This document shows, one piece after another, positions 2,443 through 32,656 of a stretch of 36,538 nucleotides of DNA. Source of the DNA: a virus; IMG/VR virus record IMGVR_UViG_3300033155_002361, positions 1-36,538 of that record. One strand, given 5' to 3'. A model generated the notes under the pieces. It did no database searches, was not told where the DNA came from, and worked only from the letters and a program-made list of their open reading frames with translations. A program made the translations under genes and the position numbers. The stretch's first letter is position 1. Each line of letters begins with the position of its first letter.

Positions 2443-2907
2443 TTAGCCTTTCCTGGTTTGTTTTACGATCATTTCTGCAAGCATTTTCAATTCCTCTGTT
2501 CGGTCCTTTCGTATCATGCCCTTAACCCTCTCCATCGTTATGACTAAATCCTTTGATTCCTGCACTCTGGCATCGGCCATTTCTTTTAGCTGATCCTTTA
2601 TTCCACCAACCTCTACCTTTACCTCGTCAATCTTTTTACAGTAAGTTCCCTGGAACCTTATGCAGTCACCCGCATGTTGATAACGGGCCGAACCGTCCGC
2701 ACTGTATATTTCGTGCTTTTTAACGGTGTTAGCCATATCTATTGCCGTAACCTGTTGTGTGTGAGCAATCATCTCAACCTTGTCTACCCTTCCAGCCAGC
2801 GCTGGTATTTTATATCTTACAGTTACAATTATAGCTATAACAAAAGCTCCAGTTATTAAAAACATTGGGACCCAAATAGACGCTGTTTTTATAATTGTTT
2901 CTAACAT
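2443..2907 (-). CDS. Single-pass membrane protein with coiled-coil tail
   Basis: This 154-residue protein has one hydrophobic N-terminal segment (about residues 11-32, rich in Val, Ile, Phe and Ala) followed by a charged, helix-forming domain (about 38-154) with heptad-like Lys/Glu/Val patterns and two cysteines (in HAGDC and TYC). The architecture suits a spanin-like, holin-accessory or membrane-anchored tail protein, but no family signature is seen. The ATG overlaps the stop of the upstream gene as TAATG, so it is probably translationally coupled. Its place just after the ejection-protein block and the absence of an endolysin nearby leave the role open. Confidence 0.7.
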   Translation of the reverse strand: MLETIIKTASIWVPMFLITGAFVIAIIVTVRYKIPALAGRVDKVEMIAHTQQVTAIDMANTVKKHEIYSADGSARYQHAGDCIRFQGTYCKKIDEVKVEVGGIKDQLKEMADARVQESKDLVITMERVKGMIRKDRTEELKMLAEMIVKQTRKG

Positions 2908-3242
2908 TATTTAATCCTCTCAAGGTCTACTTCCTGGATAAAACCCTTATTGTCACGCTGTGTAACCCTCACTCTCCACCGCCTTGGCGGATCCATTTCT
3001 GGATATGGTGGTATGGTAATCACGGGTGCATCCATCTTGATAACCGGCGTCGGAAGGTCACGGGACAGATGTAACACAACATTATCCAGGAGCTCCACAG
3101 CCTTTGCGTTGTTCGTGGACATCTGGCTTATAGCATCCCGTACCGTCAAAATCAACGGGTCCGATGTAACCGCAGAAATCTTTTTGGATTTCTTGGCAAC
3201 CTTACTGGAATTTTTCCCATTATCTTTTAAAAAGACTTTCAT
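2907..3242 (-). CDS. Small hypothetical late protein
   Basis: I place the start at the ATG at 3242 (MKVFLKDNGKNS), giving 111 residues and an ATGA overlap with the stop of the 1444-residue gene. A GTG four codons earlier, at 3254, is the alternative. GGAG lies about ten bases before the ATG. The N-terminus is strongly basic (a KVAKKSKKI run), the middle is helical, and the C-terminus carries a Pro-rich stretch (IPPYPEMDPPRRW) followed by a beta segment. There is no signal peptide or membrane helix. Function unknown; tight coupling on both sides suggests co-production with the large ejection protein. Confidence 0.65.
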   Translation of the reverse strand: MKVFLKDNGKNSSKVAKKSKKISAVTSDPLILTVRDAISQMSTNNAKAVELLDNVVLHLSRDLPTPVIKMDAPVITIPPYPEMDPPRRWRVRVTQRDNKGFIQEVDLERIK

Positions 3243-6200
3243 GTCTTCAGACACTCCATTAGCTGGTAAAATTCGTTTACATTTTCTTCCATATCAGAGA
3301 AAGCCTCGCGTGCTGGCTCCTCTGTTTCAGTCAGCTCCCCAGTCTCCGGATCTATGTATCGTACCGTAGCTGTCTCACTCATGGGCATGAAATCCATATT
3401 CTCACGAATGAATTTGGCCTTGCGCGATTTAACCGTAGGAGCTTCTTCTGGGGACGGAAGGGTCTCAGCCAGGACAACCTCTGGGGCAACAAGTTTGGGC
3501 GGTGGTGCTGGCAACTGAGGCTGCATGAGGGGCATTTCAATAACGGTTGACTTCTTTATTTTATCAACAGAATCCCTAATCCAAATTTTTGCCTGTGCGT
3601 CAGCCTGACGATCAGTCAGGGTGGTATATTCCGGTGTGGAAATGTCGGTAGACAGCAAACCGTCAACACGTTTCTTCTGGACAGCTACCTGTTCTGGTGT
3701 TGACGCACGGCCTTTCCATGTCAATCGTTTTGTCAGGTTGTTAAGACGAGTCATAGACCCTGTGATCTGAGCGCCCAAAGATTTGAGGTTTCTTGCCCAG
3801 GGTGGCCCGCTGGGTTTTTTGCCAAAGTTTCCAAGCTGGCTGTAAATTTGGCTGAGTTTGTTTTTGGCCTTATCTTTAAGGTTCCCATCCACCAGCTCCA
3901 GGTCGTCAATCATTTCGGTTACTTCTTCCGGTGCAACCTCAATGGTCGCCGGTATAGCAACCATCGGAGTTGCGATTGCAGGTACTGGTGCAGCTCCAGC
4001 CTCAGCCATTTGCACCACCCCCAATTGCTCATTGGTCAGGTACTCCTGGGCTTGCTGGAGCGCACCAGAACTAACGGCAAAAGCCAGCGTGCTGGGTGGC
4101 ATACCGATATCTTCGGCCTCGTAGGCCAATTCTTCTAAAATGAAATTCCAGGCGTTTGCTTCAGGTAGGGCTGGGCTTTTGGCCAGGCGACTGACGTGAC
4201 CCGTGGTCCAGGCAATGGCATCTTCAACGGTATCTTCAGGTGTCCACTGGGCGTTGTGACCGGTAAACTCAACTCCAACAATCTGTTCATCTATAAGTTT
4301 GCCTTGGCCAAGGTCCCTTCCCACTTTTTCATTCGCCCTGGTTTGGGAAGCCAGAAGGCCCTCGCTTTTTTGGCTCCACCCGACTGGGAGATAATTGACT
4401 TCAACTCTTGTCCCAGGGATCCTTGCTCTGGTGGGTTTCTCTTTACCTTCCTCAGTGATGGTTGCGTATTCCGCTGGGAGTCCATCTTTGATTTTTTCGG
4501 CAGCTGATATCGCATTAGATATTGTACCTCCCGTGGCTGACGTAAAGGCCAGTCCGTTAAGCTGATAATGTATGTTATCGTCTTTTCCTAAAAAGTCGAG
4601 AACTATTTGAGATGCCGAATCTTTAATGGCAAGTCGTAAAGTTTCAAGTTCGTCCCTGCTGACAGAATCACTGTCGATCCCACTGACTCCATATTCGTCA
4701 CCACCCATACGATACAGTTTGATCCTGTTGATAATTCCGGTGGTTTCGGCTGCTTCAGTCATGGCTTGACCCATCAGCGCCAAAGCCTGGTCGCCCATAG
4801 CGTGTCCGCCAATAACCCTTTCGCCGGTCGGCAGCGTACCTTCTTTGGTCATATCGTTATAGTATTTGAGTCCGTCCACATCGATAGACACGAAAGGAAC
4901 ATCCGCACCAAATTCTTCCTTGTGTAGCTCCAGAGCATTTCTGTTTAATAAGCCGGTAAGAACATCCTCAACGGCAAACTTTCTTGTAAACTCCAGAGCT
5001 TCGGTTCTCTCAGCCGGTGTCATTTTATCAATATCGGATGTCATTTGCCAGTTTTCACGGCGCTCTATGCCACTACGCTTGTCATCTTCAACCGGTGTTT
5101 CAGTCTGACGACGATCACCCACATCAGGCTCTCTAATCCCTTCCGGATTCTCAAAGAATTCTGCCAAGTCCGGTAGATTTTGTGCAAAATCTTCCTCCAT
5201 TTGTGCAATGGAATAAACATTCGTAAGCTGATGTAATGGTTCAATATCTTCAATACCTGGTAGCGTCCTGGGTGCGTCGGAGATCCCCTGAGCACCACCG
5301 ATATCATACATGGTTTTCCAATAATCGTTACGCTTAACACCTATAACATCAATTTCGTCTGACGGTGGGATCTGGATCCGGTCGGTCAGTGAGTCCAGAA
5401 CCATGTTGCCAGCTCCGTCATCTTCAGACACCACGGTATATTGATCCCAGCTGTAGCCATCACCCTCAATCACCGCTTGATCGCCCAGCTCTAAGGAATC
5501 CACATTAATGGAGGTGCCAATGATCTCATAACCGTCTGATTCAAGTTGTGCAATCTCACCGCCCAGAAATAGCTCAGGGTCAGATGCTTTCATAGCCTGG
5601 GCAATTCCCATAATGTGATCAGATATAGCTGACTGGCGTGCTGTCAGTAGCTTGCCGGTATCCAGCTTTTCGATCAGATCAAAGAAGTCTTTTCGATTAA
5701 GACCATACTTAAATTCTTCTTTCTTTTCCTGGATCTCACGCACGGGAACCTTCTTGTCCGATTCCATGACCGTCTTACCGGCCTTATCTTTTTTAATTCG
5801 TGAGTCTCGATACCTGATAGTAAACGGTTCTTTAAACCACCCAGGATAACTGGATCCATATCCATGGGCCATACCTTCTGCAAGGTTTGGGTTTCCAGCT
5901 TCATCTATAAAGGTTACACCCTTCGGCTCGGAAACTCCAACTTGTTCGACCATCATGTCGTAAGCAGCCCGTAGATCCGGTGGGATCTGACTACGGTCAA
6001 CAAAATAGGAATCAGACAGCGTGCCCAGTAAATTGACGCGCCGGTTATATTCTTCCTGTGTTAAACCGATAGGCTCTGGGCCACCAAAAGCCGGACGGTC
6101 TGGGATGCCATTGCCCCTGATGATACCAATCTGCTCCATTGCTCCTTCATTTTGATCCTGAGTTTGGACCAAGCCCAGATCCTGGAGTATACGTTCTTTC

Positions 6201-7573
6201 TGGATGTTATCCAAATTGGGCTGGCGCGTAAAAACATCGTCACCCACTATGCGAAGCGTCCGTGCAAATTCGTCAGCAGCTTCCAGAGCTCGTTCTTTCC
6301 GGTTCTCAATTTCAACAGGATTGCCTGGTATATTTTCGGCAAGTTCAACAAACCGCTGATGGAAACTGAAATTTCTAAAGGCTTGCTGTTGTTCTGGAGT
6401 CATCATATCCAGGTGGGCCTGGGTGACAGAGGACGCCTTTCTGTTCGGCGCACGCCTGGAGATAATATCTTCGTCAGAGTAAGGCACAAAATCACCTTCA
6501 TCCGCTGCGTCTACAGCCGGACCTTTGCCGCGCCTTTCTTCTTCCATCCGAAGTTGATGGTAATTTTCGTCCTCTTTCCTTTTTTTTCTGGAAGCAACCG
6601 CACCGAATGGAGCGAAAAGCAATGCCCATGGAGCTGTCAGGGTACCTTCGTACATGCCCTGTTTGGTAGTTTCCCCTATCTCGTCCCAAAACAGTTCAGC
6701 TCGTTGGAATAATTCTTTATCCGGATTGGTAGCAAAGATATTTATAAAAGAATCAGGGTAAGCCTGTGCCCATTCTGTAAAAAACTCTGTGGACACTATC
6801 CCTCCAAGAGCTTTCATCTTCTGAAGCAACGGCATCCTTGGCTTAAACATTTTCATAGCCAAATGAAACGGTGCCATCTCAAGGGCACCCTGGATAATAG
6901 CATTACCTAAAGACCAATAATACGCTTCATCCGGTGGTGTGCCTTCCTGGATCAAATTGTCATACGTTCCACCCAGGATCTGCATGCCCATCATTCCAAA
7001 ACCAGCCCACGGCCCACCGGCTACAGATGCCAATATCATAGATCCAATCTGAGGACCTACTGATACCACGCCTTCAAACCAGTTGTGGTTCTCAAGCCCC
7101 CTGGGATCTGCTTTAAGAAATTCGGACTCAGCCAGCATGGACAAGGCCAGCTCTTGATTTTCATCCATGGCCATAATGCCAGGGCCAAAATTAGAGATCG
7201 TGTCTGCCAAGGCTTTAACCGCTGTACTTTCCTCATAGTAAGGAACGTACTTTTTCTTCATCCGATTAAGCCATTCGGATGTAGATAGCGCTGCAATAGC
7301 CGACGTTTGACCAACTTCTTGGGTCCCAGCCTTAAGTTTTTCTCCCAGCCGTCCATATTGCTCTTGCGTCCATGGACCAACATTTAAGAGCTTTAACGGG
7401 TCCAGCTCAACGGGGGGATGTTTTTCAGGCCGGTCTTCATCAAAAGAATCAAAGCTCTTGTAAAAATCCTCTACTGGTCGCGGGACCTCTCCAGACGACA
7501 AGCGCGAAAACATCGGGTCGTCTTCATAAAGCCCCCTACCGGCGTATTCTAAAATATCTTCATTAATTCCCAT
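3239..7573 (-). CDS. Giant presumptive ejection protein with internal GGDEF domain
   Basis: This 1444-residue protein is the last and largest of three consecutive presumptive internal virion proteins (348, 590 and 1444 residues), the order and size trend of T7 gp14, gp15 and gp16. Residues 165-330 hold a Gly/Ala/Met-rich hydrophobic stretch (from WFEGVVSVGPQIG) of the kind found in phage membrane-penetrating and polyvalent proteins, followed by a basic RKKRKED patch. Residues 590-660 contain an LTARQSAISDHI segment resembling helices in large polyvalent phage proteins. Residues 670-750 look like a small beta-barrel. Residues 862-1090 form a GGDEF-like domain (separate entry). The C-terminal 350 residues are helical with a Pro/Ala-rich linker (1190-1215) and a second one near 1350-1380. 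I see no transglycosylase motif. Ejection is inferred from context; the GGDEF match is direct from motifs. Confidence 0.85.
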   Translation of the reverse strand: MGINEDILEYAGRGLYEDDPMFSRLSSGEVPRPVEDFYKSFDSFDEDRPEKHPPVELDPLKLLNVGPWTQEQYGRLGEKLKAGTQEVGQTSAIAALSTSEWLNRMKKKYVPYYEESTAVKALADTISNFGPGIMAMDENQELALSMLAESEFLKADPRGLENHNWFEGVVSVGPQIGSMILASVAGGPWAGFGMMGMQILGGTYDNLIQEGTPPDEAYYWSLGNAIIQGALEMAPFHLAMKMFKPRMPLLQKMKALGGIVSTEFFTEWAQAYPDSFINIFATNPDKELFQRAELFWDEIGETTKQGMYEGTLTAPWALLFAPFGAVASRKKRKEDENYHQLRMEEERRGKGPAVDAADEGDFVPYSDEDIISRRAPNRKASSVTQAHLDMMTPEQQQAFRNFSFHQRFVELAENIPGNPVEIENRKERALEAADEFARTLRIVGDDVFTRQPNLDNIQKERILQDLGLVQTQDQNEGAMEQIGIIRGNGIPDRPAFGGPEPIGLTQEEYNRRVNLLGTLSDSYFVDRSQIPPDLRAAYDMMVEQVGVSEPKGVTFIDEAGNPNLAEGMAHGYGSSYPGWFKEPFTIRYRDSRIKKDKAGKTVMESDKKVPVREIQEKKEEFKYGLNRKDFFDLIEKLDTGKLLTARQSAISDHIMGIAQAMKASDPELFLGGEIAQLESDGYEIIGTSINVDSLELGDQAVIEGDGYSWDQYTVVSEDDGAGNMVLDSLTDRIQIPPSDEIDVIGVKRNDYWKTMYDIGGAQGISDAPRTLPGIEDIEPLHQLTNVYSIAQMEEDFAQNLPDLAEFFENPEGIREPDVGDRRQTETPVEDDKRSGIERRENWQMTSDIDKMTPAERTEALEFTRKFAVEDVLTGLLNRNALELHKEEFGADVPFVSIDVDGLKYYNDMTKEGTLPTGERVIGGHAMGDQALALMGQAMTEAAETTGIINRIKLYRMGGDEYGVSGIDSDSVSRDELETLRLAIKDSASQIVLDFLGKDDNIHYQLNGLAFTSATGGTISNAISAAEKIKDGLPAEYATITEEGKEKPTRARIPGTRVEVNYLPVGWSQKSEGLLASQTRANEKVGRDLGQGKLIDEQIVGVEFTGHNAQWTPEDTVEDAIAWTTGHVSRLAKSPALPEANAWNFILEELAYEAEDIGMPPSTLAFAVSSGALQQAQEYLTNEQLGVVQMAEAGAAPVPAIATPMVAIPATIEVAPEEVTEMIDDLELVDGNLKDKAKNKLSQIYSQLGNFGKKPSGPPWARNLKSLGAQITGSMTRLNNLTKRLTWKGRASTPEQVAVQKKRVDGLLSTDISTPEYTTLTDRQADAQAKIWIRDSVDKIKKSTVIEMPLMQPQLPAPPPKLVAPEVVLAETLPSPEEAPTVKSRKAKFIRENMDFMPMSETATVRYIDPETGELTETEEPAREAFSDMEENVNEFYQLMECLKT
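4454..4990 (-). other. GGDEF (diguanylate cyclase-like) domain inside the ejection protein
   Basis: Domain core within the 1444-residue protein, residues about 862-1040. Visible signatures, in order, are DVLTGLLNR (870-878), SIDVDGLKYYND (896-907), GGHAMGD (922-928) and RMGGDEY (955-961; codons at 4691-4711). By comparison with PleD, D898 and D959 would bind metal, N906 and D928 the guanine base, and G957, G958 and E960 complete the active loop, so every catalytic position I can check is kept. Differences from typical enzymes are a 14-residue insert between ND and GGH, and no RxxD inhibitory site nine residues before the GGDEY loop. The C-terminal boundary is loose; a degenerate AxEKVGRD motif near 1080-1087 may be the usual final helix. 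Confidence 0.85.
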
Positions 7574-7606: not shown

Positions 7607-9379
7607 CTACATTTGTAACCCAAGGTGAGACTGGCCTGTTGGTTTGGCTTGAGGCCCCAGGTTTGATATATCTTGTTTCGGCTGAAGCCCCTGCGGTCGG
7701 CCACCATCTGCCCAACGTTTCATTTTACCAGGTTCCTCTTTAAGCGCATCGGCTATGGCCGACCCAGCTCTTAGAACCTCTTTGCCAATCGGCTTAAGGA
7801 GATCTGCAAGACTAAACGGTGTCATACGTTCAGCTTCAAGCAACTGTATAATTTCTTGTGCTTTTTCGTCGCCATCCCTTGCCATAGTTTGAAGAATGTT
7901 AAAATAAGCCTTTGTTTCCGATTTGTCTGCTGACGCCCAGGAGTCTTTCGTTCTATTGTATATTCTAAGCTGCTTCATATCCTTGTCTATAGCAAAGCCA
8001 GTTCCGCCTTTTCCGATATCCTTATGGTAGTAAGTGACAACATTTTCTGAACCCTTGCCAAGATCCGGAGTTATCTTTGGGCTTCCGTCGCCATTATATT
8101 CCAACTCTACAGGAGTCAGTTCTGCCTTAAATTCTTTGGCCATATGGTAGGCAAAAGCGGGGCCATATTCCTTTAAACCACTCTGCATTATCATCCGGAG
8201 ATCAGGTTTCTTCCCAGCTTGGTCATTAAACATTTCCCTGACCCTGCCAGCAGCGACCTGGGCTGCCTGTGGAGTTAAGAAGTTTTTACCTGTTAACCCA
8301 TACTGATTTGCAAGTTTTTTCGACCCTCCGACACCACCGACCATTTTTTGTAAAACTCCCATACCCTTAAGAAAATCTCTCTGGTGTTGTTGAGCAGATT
8401 TGGGCTTCGGGTTTATCGAATCATGTTCTTCGCCCTCTGCAAGCTCAACTGGGATCCCTTCGGCATATTTTAGAGCAGCTTCCATGGCTGATTTTCCTGC
8501 TGAAATATTGTTTTTCATAATCACAGACTGATCTTTAGTTGATATCTTTTCTCCGGTCGCAGTTCCGCCAGCGCCACCACCAACAGGCTGCATCATTTTT
8601 TGGTTAACCGACATAAGTATCTGGCGTAATCGAGAAGATCCTACTGGCACCGGCGCACTGTCTCCAAACTGAACAGAAACCACACCACCATCAGTCCGAT
8701 GTTTAGGATAGCCCATCTGTTTGGCCTGTTGCTGTTCTTCGGAGATTGGATTGCCTTCAGCATCATACTGTTGTTTCATTTCTCCCAAGACCGGATTGCC
8801 CTGCTCGTCTAATATAGGATTACCCTGTTCATCTTTCATCGGCTGCTTTTGTCGCGTAACACTCGTCCTGCTGGTTTCACCCATACCTGGATAGATCCCC
8901 TTGAAATGACGATCCGCAGCCGTAGCATCTCCACGGTAAATCGCATCAGAATAAGCCCGATAGTGGCGCATCTGTTCTTGGTATGCTTCCGCATCTTCCG
9001 CAGCCTTGTTGCGGATTCGGCTGGGAACAACATCTTCAGCCGCAGCTTTAGCCCGATCTTCAGCCTTGTAGGCAGCCGTTGTTTCTCTTTCGGATAAAGC
9101 CTGGCCTAAAATATCGGATTCCAACTCGCCGCGCTCCATGTCTCGATTATGAGCCTCCTCCGTCCTTCTCTCTTTGCTGGCCTTTCTGGCTTCCGCTGCC
9201 TGACGGGCCTCTTGGTCTTCAAAACTTTCCATTGCAGAGCCACCACCACCTCCACCCATCCGAATAGCAGGCCCCCTTGTCATCGGTCGCCTGATAAGAG
9301 CGTTTAATAAGCCCAGCTTTTGATTTTGAGCCTGGGTCGCTACTTGCTGACCCCTTAGAAAAGCATCTGATATTCCCAT
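7607..9379 (-). CDS. Presumptive internal virion (ejection) protein, 590 aa
   Basis: This 590-residue protein is rich in Ala, Gln, Glu, Lys and Arg. Residues 55-170 are highly charged and probably coiled coil (runs such as ARQAAEARKASKERR). Residues 185-225 contain short imperfect repeats of the type DEQGNP[IV], a linker-like stretch. The rest (290-590) is helical with Gly and Pro breaks. The N-terminus begins MGISDAFLRGQQ, followed by a GGGGGG linker at about 42-47. It has no transmembrane helix or catalytic motif. A GGGGG ribosome site precedes the ATG. It sits between the 348- and 1444-residue proteins, the position of T7 gp15 in the ejection set. The role is inferred from position, size and composition, not from a sequence match. 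Confidence 0.7.
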   Translation of the reverse strand: MGISDAFLRGQQVATQAQNQKLGLLNALIRRPMTRGPAIRMGGGGGGSAMESFEDQEARQAAEARKASKERRTEEAHNRDMERGELESDILGQALSERETTAAYKAEDRAKAAAEDVVPSRIRNKAAEDAEAYQEQMRHYRAYSDAIYRGDATAADRHFKGIYPGMGETSRTSVTRQKQPMKDEQGNPILDEQGNPVLGEMKQQYDAEGNPISEEQQQAKQMGYPKHRTDGGVVSVQFGDSAPVPVGSSRLRQILMSVNQKMMQPVGGGAGGTATGEKISTKDQSVIMKNNISAGKSAMEAALKYAEGIPVELAEGEEHDSINPKPKSAQQHQRDFLKGMGVLQKMVGGVGGSKKLANQYGLTGKNFLTPQAAQVAAGRVREMFNDQAGKKPDLRMIMQSGLKEYGPAFAYHMAKEFKAELTPVELEYNGDGSPKITPDLGKGSENVVTYYHKDIGKGGTGFAIDKDMKQLRIYNRTKDSWASADKSETKAYFNILQTMARDGDEKAQEIIQLLEAERMTPFSLADLLKPIGKEVLRAGSAIADALKEEPGKMKRWADGGRPQGLQPKQDISNLGPQAKPTGQSHLGLQM

Positions 9380-9392
9380 GATTTACCCCCTA

Positions 9393-9587
9393 TTAATAAA
9401 GCACTGGCCGTCCAATATTTTGTCCACCACCAGGAATTTTCTGGATTAGCCCAGCTTCTGACGCTTGCTGCGGTGGTTTTGCTATAGGCTGTTCAATACT
9501 TTGCATTATTGATGGATCCATATCGTTCACAGCTGTAAGCCCTGACAATTCAGTTTGGGGTTTAGCCTCTTGCGACGGGCCAAACAC
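9393..9587 (-). CDS. Small protein inside the ejection-protein block
   Basis: This 64-residue protein starts at a GTG whose G is the last base of the preceding TAG stop (TAGTG), so translation is probably coupled to the 348-residue protein. The sequence is Pro/Gln/Ile-rich (for example SIMQSIEQPIAKPP) and likely disordered, without a membrane helix. It could be a linker or chaperone for its ejection-protein neighbours, or a C-terminal piece split from the 348-residue protein. Function unknown. Confidence 0.6.
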   Translation of the reverse strand: MFGPSQEAKPQTELSGLTAVNDMDPSIMQSIEQPIAKPPQQASEAGLIQKIPGGGQNIGRPVLY

Positions 9588-10633
9588 TAAACCCCCAGTC
9601 GAAAAGGGGAAGATGCCGGTTGCCCAAGAGAAGATATGTTCCCCAAAACATTTTGAGCATTTTGCTGTGCGCCATACTGTAAGCCCATCTGTAATCCTCC
9701 AATATCACCGTACTGACCAGCGATATTTGTAGCCATGCTGCCAGCAATATCTGCCTGACCACGGGCAATGCCTGCCTGTTGACTGGCAAGGCCGGACAGT
9801 GCCTGGGTTTCCTGACCCCTAAGCTGTGCAGCCATACCCATCATTTGGGAACCAGCCCCACGGATACCCATGGCAGTTTCTGCCATCCTTGTCGGATCCA
9901 GAAGTTGCATGGCCATAGCTGTTACTCCGGTCACACGCTCTTTCTCCCCACGCCTGGCCTGGGTAGCCGCCATTGCTTTTCCGGTAGCTTCCTGTCCGGA
10001 AATCCGCTGCATGGTTGCCCGTCCCTGCGTGGTAGTTGGATCCATACCCAACCTTTGGAGCCGCCTGGCCTCTGATTGCCTGGCAATATTGCCCTGGGCA
10101 CTAACATCTGCCATGGCTCGACCGGAAACGCCTTCATAATCAGCCTGTGTCATATCCATCAGCTGATCTCTGGCCACCCCTCTGGCTGACAATTCTTCCT
10201 GGGCTGCAAGACGGAAGTCCTGTTCTGTGCCAGCAAAATCTTCACGAAAACTTCGGTATTCATCCTCCATTTCTCCCGCCAGACCACCCAAACGATCGGC
10301 GGACTCTTTGGCGTCCGTCATCCACTCATAGGTGCCCTCAAAAGACTGTAGGGCCTTGTTGTAAACACCCTTGGACTCTTGAAGCGTCTGGTTCCACTGT
10401 TCCAACCACTGGTTCATTCCCATGTCGCCACCGCTACCAGTGTTGGCACCTATGCCCAGGGCTTGCTGTGCTGCCAGGTACTGCATTTCACGCATATTGA
10501 TTTCGTGCGCCCTGTCCTGGTTGGCAGCCTTCCCCCTTGCTGCCATATACTGATCCATCGTACTGTACATTCCAGATCCTGGCCTGGTAGTATAGGCACC
10601 TCCAGTCCCGATTGCGTTTGTATAGGCTCCCAT
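9587..10633 (-). CDS. Presumptive internal virion protein, gp14/gp7-like
   Basis: This 348-residue protein is extremely rich in Ala, Gly, Gln and Met and has very little beta propensity. The middle (90-150) is an acidic helix pair. Residues 185-235 carry the ARRLQRLGMDPTTTQGRA type of sequence that I associate with podoviral DNA-ejection proteins (T7 gp14 or P22 gp7 style). The C-terminal 90 residues are Gly/Ala/Gln repeats (such as GLASQQAGIARGQ) typical of membrane-inserting ejection proteins. A GGAGGT site embedded in the last codons of the upstream gene sits immediately before TAA-ATG. As the first gene of the ejection block it fits the smallest-first order. Assignment is by composition and context. 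Confidence 0.75.
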   Translation of the reverse strand: MGAYTNAIGTGGAYTTRPGSGMYSTMDQYMAARGKAANQDRAHEINMREMQYLAAQQALGIGANTGSGGDMGMNQWLEQWNQTLQESKGVYNKALQSFEGTYEWMTDAKESADRLGGLAGEMEDEYRSFREDFAGTEQDFRLAAQEELSARGVARDQLMDMTQADYEGVSGRAMADVSAQGNIARQSEARRLQRLGMDPTTTQGRATMQRISGQEATGKAMAATQARRGEKERVTGVTAMAMQLLDPTRMAETAMGIRGAGSQMMGMAAQLRGQETQALSGLASQQAGIARGQADIAGSMATNIAGQYGDIGGLQMGLQYGAQQNAQNVLGNISSLGQPASSPFRLGV

Positions 10634-11161: not shown

Positions 11162-12075
11162 TAACTAAACTCCAGAGTCACGGTTAATCCATTCGGTGCC
11201 GTACCTGAATGAATACCGCTAATGTTGACATTTATTATATCGCCGGTTTCTACATCATCATTCGAAGTATTAATAACGCCATCTTGTGCATACCACTCGT
11301 CACCAATAGTAACTTCCGTGGACAACATAGCGACCTCTGAGCCATCACGGCTTCGGTAAACACCCACATCCGTAGAAAGAGTTATCCCTTTATCCCAAAC
11401 ACCGCAAACCACATTGGTCAATTCCAACCCATTCAGGTGTGGCGGAATGACAATAATACCCTTTTCCCCAGTGGTAACGGGTACCGCTGCATCAAAAACA
11501 GGAATCGTTACCGACAGAGTAAGCGTCCCGCCACCAGCTGCGTTGGAATGGTCGTGACCGGCGCTGGTGAAATCACCAATCGTGGGTGTTGTCAGCGTTT
11601 TATTGGTCAGTGTCTGGCTATCATCCGTAGTTAAAATGTCTCCGGAAGTGTTGCCACCAACAGACACATCGTCCAGCTGATTAAGCTCAGTCGCCGTAGC
11701 CACCAAAGCCACAGCCTCGTTAAGCAATGGGCTTGTTAGTTGTCCACCATTAGCAGCATCAGCGTGGGTATGTCCAAAATTGGTAAAATCACCACCGGAA
11801 AGGGCAGCAATCGCATTGAGCTGAGTAGCCGTTGCTGTCAGGTCAACAGCTTCATTAAGATGAACGGTACCCACAGAAAGATCAAGTGTGGCAGCAGTAT
11901 TTAGAACGATGTCGCCCTGATAGCCACTATCAAGGTATTGAAACAGGTTCTCTACCTCGATATGTTTATTCTGGTCCTCAAGCACTACCTCAGAAACATC
12001 TCCAAGGTAAAGAACATCGTCTGCCGCTGGAGCTACCAGCAGCTGGGTCATTTGGGTAATATCTAAGTCAGCCAT
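11161..12075 (-). CDS. Tail fibre-like protein with short repeats
   Basis: This 304-residue protein has fibre-type repeats: LNEAVDLTATATQLN and LNEAVALVATATELNQ; FTNFGHTHADAANGG and FTSAGHDHSNAAGGG; and SQTLTNKTLTTPTIG. Thr, Ala, Asn, Asp and Gly dominate, and HxH triplets may bind metal ions at a trimer axis, as in several phage fibres. The C-terminal 110 residues form a separate beta-rich domain. N-terminal residues 1-50 (MADLDITQMTQLL) probably attach it to the tail. It lies between the nozzle and the nozzle-associated protein, suggesting a second, shorter fibre besides the 1966-residue one. Confidence 0.75.
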   Translation of the reverse strand: MADLDITQMTQLLVAPAADDVLYLGDVSEVVLEDQNKHIEVENLFQYLDSGYQGDIVLNTAATLDLSVGTVHLNEAVDLTATATQLNAIAALSGGDFTNFGHTHADAANGGQLTSPLLNEAVALVATATELNQLDDVSVGGNTSGDILTTDDSQTLTNKTLTTPTIGDFTSAGHDHSNAAGGGTLTLSVTIPVFDAAVPVTTGEKGIIVIPPHLNGLELTNVVCGVWDKGITLSTDVGVYRSRDGSEVAMLSTEVTIGDEWYAQDGVINTSNDDVETGDIINVNISGIHSGTAPNGLTVTLEFS

Positions 12076-12084
12076 GTCAATCTC

Positions 12085-13683
12085 CTATAAGTCTGCGATT
12101 AAAAATATATTGTCTCCGGATCCGATCTGCACAATCTGGTCGGCCCGATTGGGATAACTGGCCCCATCGATCTGTAATAGAACTTCGGCAGTCTGCTTCA
12201 CATAGTAAAGCGTATCGGTGCGCGGATCTACATACACAGCCGGTGCATAATTTGTGTTTAGCGCACTCCCCAGAAGCAGCGTGGTGATTTTCTTCTGGTC
12301 AAAATCAATAACCAGAACGTTGCCTTCAAAATCTCCCTGATCGTAAAAACCATAATAACGACCATCCTGATAGGCCCCTTCAAAAGTGTCCGGCTCGTAA
12401 CCTTCCCACTCCTTTTTGGTAAAAAATCCTGCGGTAGCATTAATAGATCGGCCCTCTGAAACCAAAACAAGGCCATCGCTGGTAGCGTAAAGGACGCCAA
12501 GCTCATATTCAGCAAGAGACCTTTTGGATATGCACGGCTGAGATTCAGGCATCTTGTTAGGTGTCATTGATGACGGGTGAGTACCAGTAATAATATATGG
12601 GTTTTGATCTGTGGCAACCACCAGGTTGTTTTCCATCACGCCCAGAGCCACAATCGAAAATTCCAGAGTAAGTATATATTCCTCCGGATAAGCGTGTGGC
12701 TGATATGGTTCAGAAAAATAAAGATCCTTCCCCCTGAACCCAACCATTATCCCATTGGGCATAGCAACAAGGCCAAGAAGATCATCCGGTGGCGGTACCC
12801 ATCGCGGGGCTGTCAGGCCGGTCTGCAAAACTTCACCCAGTTCGGTATCCAGTTTAGAATCAGAATAGATCGTTGTTACAGCTGCAACTTGATCTACATA
12901 TTGATACTGGGCTACCGTATCGCCCTGGTTAAGCCGGTAGATGAACTTGGAAACCATTGTGTCTTCATAGGCTCTCCAGATCACCGTATTGTCGGTCGTA
13001 TCTCCATCTACGACAGTTCCCCAAGTAGGCTCTGGGCCACCTGTAGTGCCAGCCTGGACGCACTTGTAAACATATCCATTAGGAGTGCTGGGTATTACAA
13101 ACTCAGTCGTCTCATAGCCCTGTCCGCTGAGCCAGGTCATGTCCATATTGGTAATATCGATCTGATCTCCAGGCAAAGCGCCCACTTCAACATCCGATAC
13201 AGGTGCAGGAGCCGATTCTTCACCCCAGGATGTAATTACGGTCCATGTATAAACCAGGTCTCTGGCATCTCCACTACCCCCACCCGCATTGTTGAGTGAC
13301 GGTTGCCTCCATGGTTGCGGACTGGCCATAGAATAAAAGTTGATCGGCAGAGCACCGGAACCAGTTGTGGCTTCAGTTTCATTCGATTTTTTAGGAATCC
13401 CGTCGCCGGTATAATAAAACTTAAAATCGGTATCTCCGGACACTGGACCCAACGCTACATCCACATCAGCCGACCATTCCAGCCAAAATTGAGATCGATA
13501 CAGATAAATCGTTCTGACCAAAACACCCAGCTCGGCATCAGCATTTTTAAACTCGTTATCCCATGGACGTATCTCTCCCGAAACCAGTTTGACATTGCTG
13601 GCTACCTGGGCTTCATTAGCTTCAAGTAGCTGCCTGGCCCTGACCGGTCTGATACCGCTGAATAAAGGGATGTCTATTTTCAT
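12085..13683 (-). CDS. Tail nozzle / tail tubular protein B-like
   Basis: This 532-residue protein has the hallmarks of podoviral nozzle proteins. It starts MKIDIPLFSGIRPVRARQLL, with VKLVSGEIRPW near residue 31. An FN3-like stretch (VYTWTVITSWGEES) follows at 144-157, and a propeller-like half contains AMPNGIMVGFRGKDLYFSEP (about 330-350) and later YATSDGLVLVS. An extra module at about 185-240 interrupts the FN3-like part (YKCVQAGTTGGPEPTWGTVV), resembling small sugar-binding inserts in phage tail proteins. An AAAGGAT site precedes the ATG. The expected role is to form the distal tail tube that opens during DNA delivery. Confidence 0.75.
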   Translation of the reverse strand: MKIDIPLFSGIRPVRARQLLEANEAQVASNVKLVSGEIRPWDNEFKNADAELGVLVRTIYLYRSQFWLEWSADVDVALGPVSGDTDFKFYYTGDGIPKKSNETEATTGSGALPINFYSMASPQPWRQPSLNNAGGGSGDARDLVYTWTVITSWGEESAPAPVSDVEVGALPGDQIDITNMDMTWLSGQGYETTEFVIPSTPNGYVYKCVQAGTTGGPEPTWGTVVDGDTTDNTVIWRAYEDTMVSKFIYRLNQGDTVAQYQYVDQVAAVTTIYSDSKLDTELGEVLQTGLTAPRWVPPPDDLLGLVAMPNGIMVGFRGKDLYFSEPYQPHAYPEEYILTLEFSIVALGVMENNLVVATDQNPYIITGTHPSSMTPNKMPESQPCISKRSLAEYELGVLYATSDGLVLVSEGRSINATAGFFTKKEWEGYEPDTFEGAYQDGRYYGFYDQGDFEGNVLVIDFDQKKITTLLLGSALNTNYAPAVYVDPRTDTLYYVKQTAEVLLQIDGASYPNRADQIVQIGSGDNIFLIADL

Positions 13684-13686
13684 GGT

Positions 13687-13815
13687 CTATCCTTTGTTGG
13701 AGATACGCCCAATCGCAGGCATTGCAAAGACCCCCTCCCGAACCGTCTCCACAGTTGTTATAAAAGTCTTTTGTCGCCTTACGATTGAGCGCATCATAAT
13801 AATTCCCACAAACAT
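13687..13815 (-). CDS. Putative 42-residue protein filling an intergenic gap
   Basis: This short frame (MFVGIIMMRSIVRR to GRISNKG) occupies the 139-base space between the propeller-containing protein and the nozzle gene almost exactly: it starts eight bases after one stop and ends three bases before the next start. The start codon has no clear ribosome site; an in-frame ATG at 13797 or 13794 has a weak GTGGGA upstream. The N-terminus is hydrophobic then basic. It could be a real small late protein or chance. Confidence 0.4.
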   Translation of the reverse strand: MFVGIIMMRSIVRRQKTFITTVETVREGVFAMPAIGRISNKG

Positions 13816-13822
13816 AATATAT

Positions 13823-15418
13823 TTATACCAGAGGCCAATAATAAGTTCCTGCATTATTCACAGTAGAGATTATATAGCCATCAAATTCTTCAAAATTTAA
13901 ATGATACCGAAAATTACCAGAAATATCATCAGATGCCGCTATCCACTGATTGCCAGAACCAGGCCATCGATACATGGTTAAGTCCGCAGAGTCATTAGAC
14001 GCATAGAATAGATGGCCGCTACGTTCGACTAAATCAGCCGCATCAACCGCCCCCAATGGTTGGTTTGTAGTAACCTGGGAATAATCCGAACCATCGTGCT
14101 TGTAAAGGTAGCCGTTGTTTTGGACCATATAGTATACATCACCATCAATAGAAAACGCTTCCACCGCCCGATAATTTCCACTGGCTGGTATCGGAGTGCC
14201 TGGAGCTACCGCCCAGTCCCCAGAAACTTGCCATCGATAAAATCCGCCAGGTCCGTTAAATCCAGCCAAAATATAAGTGCCATCTGAAACCAAAATTTGA
14301 GTGGTGAACCCCAGCGGTGTAGTTGTCATTTGCGACCATGTAGTCCCGGAATCCCATCGCCACAGATGACCAGTGCTTACAACTGCGTATAAGTTACCAC
14401 CGTGAGTAATAATTTGGGGACCTACACCACCTGGCGCACCAGCTGAAACCCATGTAGGCGTTATGGTGTCGTAATAATAGACTATTGAAATACCGCCAAA
14501 CGACGAAAACAAATTGCTGCCATGAGACACCATGTTTACGATATTCGCACCTAAACCATTCATGCCGACATCCGACCAAGAACCTGTCGGATCAGCCCTG
14601 CCATACAAATAGCTATTACCGTTACTTCCGTAAAGTATACCGGAGTGCTCTGTCATATCATAATAGAAACCGCCATCGCTAAACGTCCAAAGAGAAATTT
14701 CTGTAAGCGTATATTCCCCAGAAGCAACATTTACGCTTGGCTGCTCCCAGCGATTCCCACCAAAAGCACGGGCTTTATAAGTTGTGACAGCACTATTAAT
14801 CATTTCGAACGGACCACTATAGAGCGTATCGGTCTCGTCCGGAGTGCTCCCGTCATCGGTATAATAAATGCTAACACCCGCAGTAACGCAAGACATGGTT
14901 AAATCTGCCCCGTTGGTATAAGCACCGGGGGGCGGAGAAAAAGTTACATCCGCCACAAAAACTTCACCGGCAATCAACCTCCACGCTGTTGAAGCGGCAG
15001 CAACCGCTTTCCACCACAAATGCAAATCTGTTTGGTAGACTTTCTCGCCAATATAATCAGAAACCAGCACACCGTCTGGAATAAAAGCCACTGTCCTCGG
15101 CAACGCTTTCTGAACAATCAACTCCACAGATGCCTCTGATAAAACCTGCCAGATTATTGTGCCTCCACCCCAGTTTTGGGCAGCGGTCGACTCTAATCCA
15201 CGGGTGACAGACAGGCCCTGGGCTGCATTGGAGTTTCCAACATCCACCAACACAATTTCTTTATCACCAGCAGCATTGATCATCTGGGCATAGAAACTGT
15301 CACCACTCCCACCCTTGCTCAGCATGGTGTCATAGCTGGTCAGTGGTATCCTGGTGTCGGAATCGCTAATGCTTTCAGCCAGTCTTGCCTGGGATCCCAT
15401 ATTAAAAACCAGTGCCAT
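13823..15418 (-). CDS. Multidomain sugar-binding tail protein (chitobiase-C-like plus propeller-like)
   Basis: This protein has 531 residues from the ATG at 15418 (MALVFNMGSQ), chosen because it overlaps the upstream TGA as TGATG and has AAGGAG 11 bases upstream; a frame extending to 15466 is possible but would overlap more. Residues 1-150 are a paralogue of the adjacent 145-residue protein. Residues 158-238 match the chitobiase/beta-hexosaminidase C-terminal domain pattern (FSPPPGAYTNG, SIYYTDDGSTP, YKARAFG). Residues 241-531 are about six repeats with WxWxSG- or YRW-type strands, probably a beta-propeller. The composition is that of a secreted or virion-surface adhesin. It likely binds host glycans or envelope polysaccharide; no catalytic residues are evident. 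Confidence 0.75.
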   Translation of the reverse strand: MALVFNMGSQARLAESISDSDTRIPLTSYDTMLSKGGSGDSFYAQMINAAGDKEIVLVDVGNSNAAQGLSVTRGLESTAAQNWGGGTIIWQVLSEASVELIVQKALPRTVAFIPDGVLVSDYIGEKVYQTDLHLWWKAVAAASTAWRLIAGEVFVADVTFSPPPGAYTNGADLTMSCVTAGVSIYYTDDGSTPDETDTLYSGPFEMINSAVTTYKARAFGGNRWEQPSVNVASGEYTLTEISLWTFSDGGFYYDMTEHSGILYGSNGNSYLYGRADPTGSWSDVGMNGLGANIVNMVSHGSNLFSSFGGISIVYYYDTITPTWVSAGAPGGVGPQIITHGGNLYAVVSTGHLWRWDSGTTWSQMTTTPLGFTTQILVSDGTYILAGFNGPGGFYRWQVSGDWAVAPGTPIPASGNYRAVEAFSIDGDVYYMVQNNGYLYKHDGSDYSQVTTNQPLGAVDAADLVERSGHLFYASNDSADLTMYRWPGSGNQWIAASDDISGNFRYHLNFEEFDGYIISTVNNAGTYYWPLV

Positions 15419-15855
15419 CAGATATTCATCTCCTTCCATTCGGTGCTGGTAGTGTGTTTCCACCATACACCGGTAACGCTCTGGTAGACTTCTTCTCCAG
15501 CATAAAGTGCTGCCAGAGATCCATCCGGATCAGTTACCACTGTGCGCTCCACCCCTTTCTGCAAAAAATTTTCAAGGGCTATGTCGTCCATTCGATGTTC
15601 AACGGACGCACCAATATTAAAAGATAGTGGCGATGGGCTGCGTGTGACCGTAAGTGAATCACCAGACACACCGGTACAGGTCATCCATTCGAAAACAGCA
15701 GCACCCTCATAGACAATAATCCTGAAGGCTTCACCGGCCCCGGGAGACGGGAATAAAGCTCCCTGTCCAGACTCAAGTACCAGCAAGGTGTCACCAGTAC
15801 CAATAGCTGTGTTTAGTGCGCCAATGGCGTTATTGGCAAATAGGTATTCTGTCAT
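15418..15855 (-). CDS. Tail-associated protein, paralogue of next gene's N-terminus
   Basis: This 145-residue protein (start MTEYLFANNAIGALN) overlaps the upstream DUF6682-like gene as ATGA. It shares a scaffold with the first 150 residues of the downstream 531-residue protein: a start with LFANNAIG versus LVFNMGSQA, a TRxPLT/TLLVLES strand, SLTVTR versus GLSVTRG, FLQKGVERTV versus IVQKALPRTV, and GEEVYQSVTGVWWK versus GEKVYQTDLHLWWK. It ends soon after the WWK motif, so it represents the attachment module without a binding domain. It is probably a tail-attachment subunit on which the longer protein was built by duplication. Function inferred from this relationship only. Confidence 0.65.
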   Translation of the reverse strand: MTEYLFANNAIGALNTAIGTGDTLLVLESGQGALFPSPGAGEAFRIIVYEGAAVFEWMTCTGVSGDSLTVTRSPSPLSFNIGASVEHRMDDIALENFLQKGVERTVVTDPDGSLAALYAGEEVYQSVTGVWWKHTTSTEWKEMNI

Positions 15856-16520
15856 TGTGGCTGACCTCCTGATTGCTGCTGTAAGCCCAGAGACATCAGA
15901 AATCGCTGGTAATAAAGCTGTGACCTGGGAGTGTTGCCTGGGATATCAGTATCATCATCATACGCCTGAAACAAGATCCCATTGATATATCCATCCAAAT
16001 AATAATCACTGGTAGGAATTGACAGAGATCTCCAGGCTCCTGGCGCGTCATAGACAATATCCGGTGGAGCCTCGGCTTGTTCAATTTCTACATAACCGGT
16101 ACCATCAGATTTAGGATGAACATAAAATTGCTCAGGATACTCCGGAAGCGGCCACCAGTCCCAGATGCTGGCATCGGAATTAACCGGATCTGTAGAAAAT
16201 GCAGGCACATAACGTGTGACATAGCTCCTGTCGGTCTGACGAACAGCACGGCCTGGGGTCAATCCATCCGTACCCATATTGCGGATCACGTCAACAATCT
16301 CTAACCCAACAGGCGGTGTGGCCGACAAGACCTGTTTGTTTCCGGCTTGCAGTTTCAGGTTTCGCACCCTGGTATAAACCCGTGGCTGCAATGTTACCAT
16401 CCTGCGGCTGGTCAAATTAAAAAGATTCAACATCTCTGGATCATCAAAATCGATACTGGCTTCATCCAGTATTCGTTTTCTGCAGGTATCGATTACCGAT
16501 CCGACTGTGTAGGTAGACAT
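15852..16520 (-). CDS. DUF6682-type head-tail adaptor protein
   Basis: This 222-residue protein matches the pattern I recall for DUF6682 phage proteins: a helical N-terminus (STYTVGSVIDTCRKRIL), NLTSRRMVTLQPR, the conserved LEIVDVIRNMGTDGLTPG, then RQTDRSYVTRYVP and FYVHPKSDGTGYVEI, ending in a helical YLDGYINGILFQAY segment. Proteins of this kind sit near nozzle genes in short-tailed phages and are likely equivalents of T7 gp11 or P22 gp4 adaptors joining the portal to the nozzle. The gene overlaps the next by four bases. A weak AGGAGC-type site precedes the ATG. Confidence 0.75.
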   Translation of the reverse strand: MSTYTVGSVIDTCRKRILDEASIDFDDPEMLNLFNLTSRRMVTLQPRVYTRVRNLKLQAGNKQVLSATPPVGLEIVDVIRNMGTDGLTPGRAVRQTDRSYVTRYVPAFSTDPVNSDASIWDWWPLPEYPEQFYVHPKSDGTGYVEIEQAEAPPDIVYDAPGAWRSLSIPTSDYYLDGYINGILFQAYDDDTDIPGNTPRSQLYYQRFLMSLGLQQQSGGQPQ

Positions 16521-16556
16521 TTCTTCAGCTCCTCAATTTGTGATTTAACTTTATAT

Positions 16557-17336: not shown

Positions 17337-17338
17337 TT

Positions 17339-18087: not shown

Positions 18088-18106
18088 TATACCCCCTCAT
18101 GTGTCG

Positions 18107-26740: not shown

Positions 26741-27649
26741 TTAAGCGCCAGCAGATCCGTAAATACCACGTTTGTCGGAAGCGCCCCAGGAAGCCCTGAA
26801 TGTAGATTTAAAACGGGCGTTCTCGGTGTCAAAATCATTGTCAGTATCAAATTCGTCGCCACGACGGTTAAAATATTTCAGTCCGTCTGGGCAATCTGTC
26901 TTGATATACCAGCTGTCCTGGTCAGTCAGATAATGATTAATAACAACCTCTGGGATCATCCCCAACGCGCGAATCGCGTTAAGGTCATTGTTTGCCGTTC
27001 CTACGCGCAGTTCGGATTTCAGGATCCTGGTGGACTCAAAAGTATTGTCCACAGCCACAATCAGCTTCATTGGCCGTACAGCAATCCTGAGACCGCGATC
27101 ATTGGTAAAATTGGCAATATCAATGCACGCTTGCTCAAGCGCAGCTTCGGATAAATCAGACGGTGTTGCCAGCTCGTTCGACCAGACACCTCCCGTTACA
27201 TTGGGATGTGCGGTGGAAAGCATCTCTACACCATCACCGAAAACATAATCAGAGTCAAAGGCACGATTGAGGATATTCGCACCCAGTATTTCCTTGGTTT
27301 GGCGGATTGAAAACGCCAAAGCTCTGGCTCTTTTCAATGCCACGGTCCCTGCGATCCCATCTTCCCACATCTCCCGCGTGATGATGAAACCTAAACTGTA
27401 GGTCCCATGAATGTATCTATCGATAAAGCCCTGACGAGCATCGTCGTAAGTGATGCCGCGCCCTTCAGGCTTCTCTTGAGCCAGGCCAAAAGACGAGATT
27501 CCTACGTCTTCCTCAAAGGCCAATTGAGATTGCTCCTCGTCGAATATCTCGGTAAATTCCATTGGATATTCAGCGTAAGCAAGCCCGTACCATTTGTTAA
27601 CGCCAGGCCATAGGTCCTTGGCGAATGATCCAGTTGTAATAACAGGCAT
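26741..27649 (-). CDS. Major capsid protein
   Basis: This 302-residue protein is strongly indicated as the major head protein. Residues 1-150 follow the pattern of Bbp17/gpT-like phage capsids: an N-terminal helix (FAKDLWPGVNKWYG), the acidic FTEIFDEEQSQLAFEEDVG, RYIHGTYSLGFIITREMWED, and the spine-helix-like RARALAFSIRQTKEI. Residues 205-300 contain IAVRPMKLIVAVDNTFESTRIL and a C-terminal WGASDKRGIYG. It has the window's best ribosome site, AAAGGAGG six bases before the ATG (27656-27663), as expected for the most abundant virion protein. It lies downstream of scaffold and decoration genes, the usual head order. The fold is presumed HK97-like. Confidence 0.9.
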   Translation of the reverse strand: MPVITTGSFAKDLWPGVNKWYGLAYAEYPMEFTEIFDEEQSQLAFEEDVGISSFGLAQEKPEGRGITYDDARQGFIDRYIHGTYSLGFIITREMWEDGIAGTVALKRARALAFSIRQTKEILGANILNRAFDSDYVFGDGVEMLSTAHPNVTGGVWSNELATPSDLSEAALEQACIDIANFTNDRGLRIAVRPMKLIVAVDNTFESTRILKSELRVGTANNDLNAIRALGMIPEVVINHYLTDQDSWYIKTDCPDGLKYFNRRGDEFDTDNDFDTENARFKSTFRASWGASDKRGIYGSAGA

Positions 27650-30481: not shown

Positions 30482-32656
30482 TTAGATACTTCCTCCTGGT
30501 TGGACTGCTGCACCTGCTCCTCCTTGTGGCGGCATAGCTCCTGGTGGTTGCCCTTCTCCTGCACCTGGCTGCTCACCACCGCCCTGTTGCGCTTCTCTGC
30601 GCTGTTGATCCTCGTACTGTCTTTGCTTCAGATCTGCTTCCAGATCTACCCTTTTAGCATTAATCACAGCGGTCAAATGACCGACCTGTGTTTTATATTC
30701 CTCTATCTGTGGCCCAATCTCTGCCGCTTCGGCCAGGGCCATAGCTTTAACTGCATCCGCCTGGAGCTTGACCATTTTATAAAAGGTCTCGGCGTCTTTT
30801 ATCATTACTTCGCGTTCTTCTAAGTCCAGCTTTCTTTCAGCCTGCTGGATCTTGGCCATCTCGAGAGACATGGTTTGCTGGTGTATAATCAACGGGATAT
30901 TAGGTGGCGGGGTTTCCGGCACCAGCTCTTTCCAGTTGTCGATTTGTATGGCATCCAGATATCTCTCAAGGATTTTCTGATCATCAAGCCCCTTCCCAAC
31001 TACCTGCATCAGGGCTTCCGCTTTTATAATTTTTTGGGTATCGGAAACATCGGCTGTAGAACTTACCGGCCCGATATCCAGATCGGATGGATCATAATCA
31101 ATCCTGGGATCAAACTCCCCTTCATCGTACATATCCAGAATCCGATTATATTCTTCGGGTGTGGTATAGAGCATGTTTAAGCGCTGGATTTTAATAAATT
31201 CACTCTTAAGCGCTCGATGAATCCTTTTATAAATTGAAGAAAAAACCTTAAGTCCCTGCTCGATTAATGCCAGAGTAGTGGTGGCTGGCACATTCGGCTG
31301 ACGCTGCTCTCCCGACAAAACCTCTGCTTGCGATGCCAGATCCTTGGCGGCCTCTAACATCAGTCCTAATAGTTGAAACAGCGTAGCCGATGGCTCTTTG
31401 GTGGGCAGGGGGAAAATGCTTTTTCGCAGGTCGTCTCCTGCGGATTTAATAAATTTCCATTCACCGGCTTTAAATTTAACCGATCCGGATCCACCAGCTT
31501 TCGTCAGACGGATTCCGCGATTAATAAAACCAGATTGGCGGTTCTGCAGCGTACCAGAGTCCAGTAGCTGATTTATAATTGAATTGACAGTTTCGTTGAC
31601 CGGAGAAAGCAGAATCCCAAACCCGAGACCATAAAAATTAGCGTCAAAGTCCGGAAAGAAAAGATAACGGGTAAAATACTGATCCGGCAAAATTTTAATG
31701 ATTTCGTTGTTGGGGTTGCGAATAACAGATGTCGCCCTGAAGCGCGGAACAATCCGCATCACTTCTCTGGACGCCTTGTGGATTGTCACAATATAGGGCT
31801 CTTTATAGCCGTCACCGTCCAGGTCCAACCAGCGGTGCTGCTCTAAAAATACATAGGTAGCCTCAGTGTCTCTAACGTCGTCATTTTTGTTTTTCTTTTC
31901 TTCTTCAGAGGTGTCCGGCTGTTTATTCTCAATTCCGGCATCGCGCCATAAACCGGATCGGGTATGCTCCAAATAACTGTTTTTGGTCATCTCAATGACA
32001 TGCGTGGCTCTTGCAGCCGTTTCCATGGACTTGGCCCAGTAATTAACCACCAGCTGCTCAGGATCTACATATTCTGACACGGAAGTGTTGTCGATAAAGT
32101 TTCGATAGGTTTTTTTAAAGGCACAACCTAAAAGCGGCATGGCAATCAACAACTGATCCATCTCGTCTTCCCATCCGGTAGTTGCGGCTGACAGCTGCGC
32201 GTTCATGTGGGTCCTTACGCGTTCAGCCCGTTTTTTCTTTTCTCCGCTTTCGTCGGCACCATACACGTTAACCTTAACGTAATCTTCGCCCTTGACAATA
32301 TTTCCATAGGCCCTGGACGAAAACTGGATACAAGCTGTGGATATTAACGGATATTTGATATTGGCACTTACTTCTCCACCCCAGGTTTTCGCTGATCTCA
32401 GCTGACGCGCCAGCTTAAGAGCCTCTGTCATCCGCTTTTCCCAGTCTGATCTGGATTCTTTATCGATCTGATATTCATCTTTTACCGTGCGGCCAATTTC
32501 TAAAAGTTGGCTTTGGGTCAGCTCCTCGGCAACATTCTCCGCCATGAGCATCATATCCAGGATATCAACGCCTTCGTGTGAAGGCAGTTCGGCATCCTCT
32601 ACCGGCACATCATCTGATGGAAGCTGGCTTGTGTCCGTTGGATTTCTACTTTGCAT
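30482..32656 (-). CDS. Portal protein
   Basis: This 724-residue protein is the size of P22/BPP-1-type portals. It has an acidic N-terminal tail, then WEKRMTEALKLARQ, IKYPLISTACIQFSSRAY (about 101-118) and AFKKTYRNFIDNTS, characteristic of the clip/wing of podoviral portals. A YLFFPDFDANFYGLGFG segment follows near 325-345, with VNETVNSIINQLLDSGTLQN (about 350-370) as a crown-side helix region. The C-terminal 130 residues form a coiled coil (KIQQAERKLDLEEREVMI) ending in a Gly/Pro/Gln-rich tail. The gene starts one base after the large terminase stop. The dodecameric ring it forms is the DNA entry/exit channel. Confidence 0.9.
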   Translation of the reverse strand: MQSRNPTDTSQLPSDDVPVEDAELPSHEGVDILDMMLMAENVAEELTQSQLLEIGRTVKDEYQIDKESRSDWEKRMTEALKLARQLRSAKTWGGEVSANIKYPLISTACIQFSSRAYGNIVKGEDYVKVNVYGADESGEKKKRAERVRTHMNAQLSAATTGWEDEMDQLLIAMPLLGCAFKKTYRNFIDNTSVSEYVDPEQLVVNYWAKSMETAARATHVIEMTKNSYLEHTRSGLWRDAGIENKQPDTSEEEKKNKNDDVRDTEATYVFLEQHRWLDLDGDGYKEPYIVTIHKASREVMRIVPRFRATSVIRNPNNEIIKILPDQYFTRYLFFPDFDANFYGLGFGILLSPVNETVNSIINQLLDSGTLQNRQSGFINRGIRLTKAGGSGSVKFKAGEWKFIKSAGDDLRKSIFPLPTKEPSATLFQLLGLMLEAAKDLASQAEVLSGEQRQPNVPATTTLALIEQGLKVFSSIYKRIHRALKSEFIKIQRLNMLYTTPEEYNRILDMYDEGEFDPRIDYDPSDLDIGPVSSTADVSDTQKIIKAEALMQVVGKGLDDQKILERYLDAIQIDNWKELVPETPPPNIPLIIHQQTMSLEMAKIQQAERKLDLEEREVMIKDAETFYKMVKLQADAVKAMALAEAAEIGPQIEEYKTQVGHLTAVINAKRVDLEADLKQRQYEDQQRREAQQGGGEQPGAGEGQPPGAMPPQGGAGAAVQPGGSI

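Follow-up and report, generated by a model that had tools for sequence, protein, structure and literature searches.

A GGDEF domain in a presumptive ejection protein of an uncultured sediment phage

The GGDEF domain and its active site

The window, by which we mean the whole 36,538-nucleotide stretch of IMG/VR record IMGVR_UViG_3300033155_002361, is part of a sediment phage that is also present as a 61-kb record (G001). Its minus strand encodes a 1444-aa protein, here called P0001, with the following features.

3239..7573, minus strand: putative ejection-type protein of 1444 aa with a GGDEF domain (P0001); an ORF with an intact, 83%-identical orthologue
4454..4990, minus strand: GGDEF (diguanylate cyclase) domain, residues 862-1040; PF00990, AlphaFold2 and PDB fold matches, and alignment to phage and bacterial GGDEFs
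4940..4966, minus strand: DVLTGLLNR motif, residues 870-878
4853..4888, minus strand: SIDVDGLKYYND, residues 896-907, with the presumed metal Asp D898, K903 and the presumed guanine contact N906
4808..4849, minus strand: about 13-14 additional residues separating ND from GH (TKEGTLPTGERVIG, residues 909-922), seen as an insertion in alignments
4790..4807, minus strand: GHAMGD, residues 923-928, with H924 and the presumed guanine contact D928
4691..4711, minus strand: A-loop RMGGDEY, residues 955-961
4487..4489, minus strand: K1029, Lys of the C-terminal helix at the PleD K442 position, in an invariant alignment column

The PF00990 profile scored 24.4 bits in the genome search, above the curated cut-off of 23.8, and the orthologue scored 25.6 bits; against the entire 1444-aa protein the score was weaker (17.3 bits, E 0.0043), and the sequence is divergent. 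When the domain was combined with its relatives into a profile, this matched 57 distinct PDB sequences, nearly all of them GGDEF proteins and among them the solved diguanylate cyclases, down to E 4.9e-38; the profile was made from GGDEF rows, so that the matches show these rows to be GGDEFs rather than testing the window row independently. In an AlphaFold2 model based on a 27-row alignment, the GGDEF core blocks had pLDDT values above 90 and the pTM was 0.70 over 271 residues, with a disordered tail. VIA-align matched this model to SiaD (7e6g; Z 15.7, 2.2 Å, 143 residues), WspR and PleD (Z about 14 for the latter two), so that the structural check against PleD suggested in an earlier note on this DNA returned the GGDEF fold. 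Given the PDB profile matches and the predicted fold, a chance match can be excluded, and it is near certain that P0001 contains a GGDEF domain with its fold. Residues 862-1040 represent the whole domain, including the C-terminal strand and the helix that bears the conserved K1029, and the span 4454-4990 that had been proposed for it proved to equal the complete domain. A C-terminal helix placed by eye at residues 1057-1100 was dropped, because the phage relatives and the model put the helix at about 1018-1029. In the Pfam scan of P0001, GGDEF was the sole recognised domain, and residues 330-860 and 1041-1444 received no assignment.

The four motifs that the earlier note had described in diguanylate-cyclase order (DVLTGLLNR, SIDVDGLKYYND, GHAMGD and RMGGDEY) were all located, within residues 870-961. 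By alignment, the metal residues D898 and D959, the base residues N906 and D928, K903, E960 and K1029 are present in both the window and its orthologue, and the active site looks intact; the metal, guanine and phosphate roles of D898, N906, D928, D959, E960 and K1029 are those that we take them to have from PleD. The A-loop R955-x-G957-G958-D959-E960 is kept in both known phages and ends in Tyr rather than Phe. Thus, the domain shares its fold and its metal, guanine and A-loop residues with PleD, WspR and SiaD, but it differs from them in several respects. It has no receiver or sensor domain, its signature reads GGDEY, and the inhibitory RxxD I-site is absent, with residues 948-951 before the A-loop reading INRI. 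The position equivalent to PleD R446 is not kept in the alignment, and the insertion after ND, next to the active site, is absent from canonical GGDEFs; because the R446 partner is lost and this insertion lies beside the active site, the activity may be altered. In hybrid promiscuous GGDEFs, which make cGAMP, the guanine-contact Asp is replaced by Ser. This mark was not found in the window domain, where D928 is kept, and the guanine-selective N906 and D928 appear to favour GTP and c-di-GMP. Overall, we think it somewhat more probable than not that the domain is an active diguanylate cyclase.

Virion gene order, sister phages and a second phage

The order of transcription in the window is a terminase-sized ORF, portal, head, tail proteins, a large fibre, the phrog_511 protein, a 348-aa protein, a 590-aa protein and the GGDEF protein. 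The features concerned are given below.

30482..32656, minus strand: portal protein (E 1.6e-18)
26741..27649, minus strand: major head protein, 57-62% identical in sister phages
12085..13683, minus strand: 532-aa phrog_511 protein, labelled 'internal virion protein', nozzle-like (E 7e-108)
9587..10633, minus strand: 348-aa protein with a weak match to the virion structural protein phrog_8003 (E 0.0011)
7607..9379, minus strand: 590-aa protein just upstream of P0001, a presumptive ejection protein by position only
6611..7081, minus strand: N-terminal module of P0001, residues 165-321, with hydrophobic stretches

P0001 therefore lies where a T7 gp16-like protein is expected, as a large gene after the nozzle and smaller internal virion proteins. 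The GGDEF protein had been described as following two presumptive ejection proteins; it does follow the 348-aa and 590-aa genes, but only the former has a virion match, and a weak one. For the 590-aa protein, we found no family match, and the protein that holds the corresponding position in the sister phage G011 showed no detectable similarity to it. Similarly, no Pfam or PHROG match to a lytic transglycosylase was found in the N-terminus of P0001, whereas one is present in the sister giant of G011. An N-terminal lytic transglycosylase in an ejection protein is a trait of T7 and not of P22. In an hhalign comparison, residues 165-321 aligned (probability 96%) with a 1974-aa protein that a Methanomicrobiales virus encodes in its tail module, and AlphaFold2 gave no usable model of the N-terminal 420 residues (pLDDT 32). 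The GGDEF domain sits in the C-terminal half of P0001; T7 gp16 is the last ejection protein, and its C-terminal part (gp16-C) projects into the host cytoplasm (PMC8954989).

No GGDEF was found in the sister phages (portal 40-91% identical), whose records include several fragments as well as records of 47-62 kb. Since the latter are without GGDEF, the domain would be dispensable in the wider group. Two such sisters are G010 and G011 (portal 46% identical). In G011 (L030:6071-17626), a DarB-like (phrog_10089) methyltransferase/SNF2 giant of 3852+ aa stands at the place of the GGDEF protein. It follows its own nozzle and a 631-aa protein, its N-terminus matches the 'tail injection transglycosylase' phrog_7182, and its last ~670 aa match the C-terminal part of a polyvalent giant encoded downstream in the window phage. 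DarB of P1 is the classic antirestriction protein that shields transferred DNA (cited in PMC5512222), and the occurrence of a DarB-like giant at the same place strengthens the ejection reading. The 'ejection-type' label given to P0001 at the outset thus held in terms of position, at the T7 gp16-like end of a podovirus-type virion module and in synteny with G011 and with two further phages described below (L060 and L065). On this basis, which is positional throughout, P0001 is likely to be an ejection protein.

Other genes around the module were also observed. The downstream polyvalent giant lies outside the window, at G001 11872-20358 (L008/L009), and has about 2830 aa; a GHKL-type ATPase and HExxH motifs were seen by eye, weakly supported by Pfam, and its match to ART-PolyVal (E 2e-6) fell just under the cut-off. 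Three genes past the GGDEF protein, positions 2001-2435 of the window (minus strand) encode a 144-aa protein with a weak match to the CxxCxxCC zinc/iron-chelating family PF03692 and a match to phrog_9155. The 1966-aa tail fibre/spike gene (18107-24007, minus strand) is located between two tail-tube-like structural genes and not after the ejection genes.

An intact orthologue of P0001 (83% protein identity), in which the domain is kept, occurs in a second phage (L002/G002; MAG contig JAFDHL010000001). The known diverged copies are these two only, and close-relative queries in the first scans matched just these two phages. The dN/dS between them was 0.036 over residues 865-965, the first half of the domain, versus 0.118 over the whole protein, values that serve as a guide only since dS is near saturation; the comparison indicates that the domain is under strong purifying selection. 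The contig of the second phage is 66.5 kb, circularly permuted, colinear with G001 across the contig ends, and binned in the Deltaproteobacteria MAG Meg22_1214_Bin_234. We also considered a prophage in a host genome; however, a scan of the GTDB collection gave one contig, a permuted phage genome without host flanks. The MAG organism is a candidate host, the link being one of binning only. Its MAG encodes two canonical GGDEF proteins and five PilZ domains, and no EAL was found in it; given these GGDEF proteins and PilZ domains, c-di-GMP would be read in this organism.

Giant GGDEF proteins in other phages

We scanned IMG/VR with the L046 domain, the window domain and YuA gp44 as queries and obtained 38 viral loci with GGDEF. 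At 15 of these (13 distinct after near-duplicates; L046/L050-L062, L065 and L066, with the window pair left out), the domain lies inside a giant ORF of 1020 to 3799 aa, mostly 2600-3800, lengths that are partly minimum values because several ORFs end at locus edges. Its companions in the giants are DarB-like regions, InPase, RadC, 2H phosphoesterase and a portal domain. In L054 (4923-14087), a single 3055-aa ORF comprises a 2H phosphoesterase, GGDEF (as KGDEF) and a portal-protein domain. In the unrelated phages L060 and L065, a phrog_511 nozzle and two proteins are followed by the giant GGDEF protein.

The giants resemble the window domain in having a compact GGDEF with a short C-terminal loop, but they differ in their extra domains and in the A-loop. 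His replaces the Arg before GG in all giants, and the first Gly is replaced by Ser or Lys in all but L046, giving the classes H-x-[SK]GDEF and, for L046, H-x-GGDEF; the window pair alone has the canonical R-x-GGDE. Otherwise, the giants keep the metal and base residues, except for L066, which has Asn for D928. The altered H-x-[SK]GDEF loop possibly reflects a changed activity, and such changes hint that c-di-GMP synthesis may not be what the family conserves. In the tree, the window pair fell on the phage side (support 97/97), a placement that is unsure because its branch is very long, at 5 changes per site. L004-L006, labelled human faecal 'Bacteriophage sp.', were rejected as phage relatives, since they proved to be common bacterial proteins in which GGDEF is joined to receptor or EAL parts, and were used as comparison rows only.

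GGDEF has previously been listed among the 'not very widespread' domains of polyvalent proteins, where it was suggested to act on nucleotide signalling once inside the host (Iyer et al. 2017; PMC5512222). Polyvalent proteins combine several unrelated effector domains in a single chain. Those proteins, for example that of the Acetonema prophage (WP_004096050), are likewise very large phage proteins in the company of virion genes and proposed to be injected. The window carrier differs in having no second recognised enzymatic domain, the ART/HExxH/HATPase giant being a separate downstream gene; its A-loop is canonical, and our comparison with Acetonema covers the carrier and gene context. Stand-alone GGDEF genes are also phage-encoded (YuA gp44 of Yuavirus, Vojvodinavirus LK3 and others, and gp350 of Bacillus phage G), but they are separate genes of 156-254 aa and are thought to act in lysogeny or host conversion; for those of Yuavirus and Vojvodinavirus, hyperbiofilm is seen in lysogens (PMC8471281). 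YuA gp44 falls on the same side of the tree as the window, and it lies outside the virion module, adjoining an antirestriction gene. Since injected GGDEFs were reported in 2017 and stand-alone phage GGDEFs are known, we regard the window protein as a new variation of a known kind. What is new here, within the library searched, is how broad the giant GGDEF family is, that its A-loops fall into classes, and that the window pair is canonical.

Possible roles of the domain at infection

Based on these results, we propose that P0001 serves a podovirus-type phage as a virion ejection protein, which would be packaged and injected so that its diguanylate-cyclase domain enters the host cytoplasm along with the phage DNA. 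There, the domain would presumably dimerise and, by catalysis, make c-di-GMP from host GTP at the onset of infection; because the I-site is missing, we propose that it would do so without product inhibition. The purpose of such a c-di-GMP pulse could be to shift PilZ-type outputs of the host or to feed nucleotide-based defence signalling. Taken as a whole, delivery of a working cyclase at infection is in our judgement an evenly balanced proposition.

The main alternative is a GTP- or c-di-GMP-binding module that is not a synthase, and that senses host GTP or c-di-GMP during ejection or soaks up nucleotides. Non-catalytic GGDEF domains act in this way, as binding modules, in some bacterial proteins. 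Such a role would suit the giant relatives, which keep the metal and base residues while two A-loop positions, the first Gly and the Arg before it, are substituted, and also the lost R446 partner, the insertion beside the active site and the very long branch of the window domain. However, the window pair keeps the full R-x-GGDE under strong purifying selection, and enzymes with SGDEF or AGDEF can be active (PMC3974145; PMC9683572); we consider a binding role rather unlikely. Less probable still is that P0001 is never injected, being a structural or late-expressed protein whose GGDEF has its function during virion assembly or in a cell undergoing lysis. The poor N-terminal model of P0001 and its 590-aa neighbour without a family match leave room for this, but the synteny with DarB-like, injection-transglycosylase and other GGDEF giants speaks against it, as does an N-terminal module in common with a giant in an archaeal virus tail module.

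A different product (cGAMP, c-di-AMP or a linear dinucleotide), serving as a decoy or blocker of CBASS or type III CRISPR, seems very improbable to us. N906 and D928 are kept, unlike the Ser of cGAMP-making GGDEFs, and the CBASS-like signalling raised in the earlier note gains no specific support. The fusion of GGDEF to a 2H phosphoesterase in L054 would fit a different product, and such fusions in phage giants suggest that manipulation of nucleotide signals is a theme. In addition, interference with host nucleotide responses was proposed by Iyer et al. (PMC5512222), and the related mCpol enzyme of Panoptes produces decoy cyclic nucleotides (PMC12657218).

Returning to the delivered cyclase, we offer a broader conjecture only tentatively, and hold it to be less likely than not: injected GGDEFs may be a widespread effector class of unrelated short-tailed phages, most of them with a remodelled A-loop that changes activity or product, and the window lineage may keep the original c-di-GMP synthase, raising host c-di-GMP before phage gene expression. 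c-di-GMP governs motility, surface polysaccharides and biofilm, outputs that decide the attachment of later phages and perhaps also affect nucleotide-based immunity. If an enzyme entered together with the genome, it would act ahead of phage transcription, like T4 Alt or the N4 virion RNA polymerase. With the giant GGDEF set, which offers two altered A-loop classes and a canonical pair, small domains would suffice for a direct test of the 2017 suggestion. The window domain is a well-preserved instance of a strategy that has received little study and recurs across many uncultured phages.

We also noticed that the window phage and L002 are almost identical over about 200 nt at positions 4340-4560 (codons about 1005-1078), with hardly any third-position changes, whereas elsewhere they differ at most synonymous sites. 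This may reflect either recent recombination or overlapping constraint; both phages have an open +1 frame of about 98 codons there.
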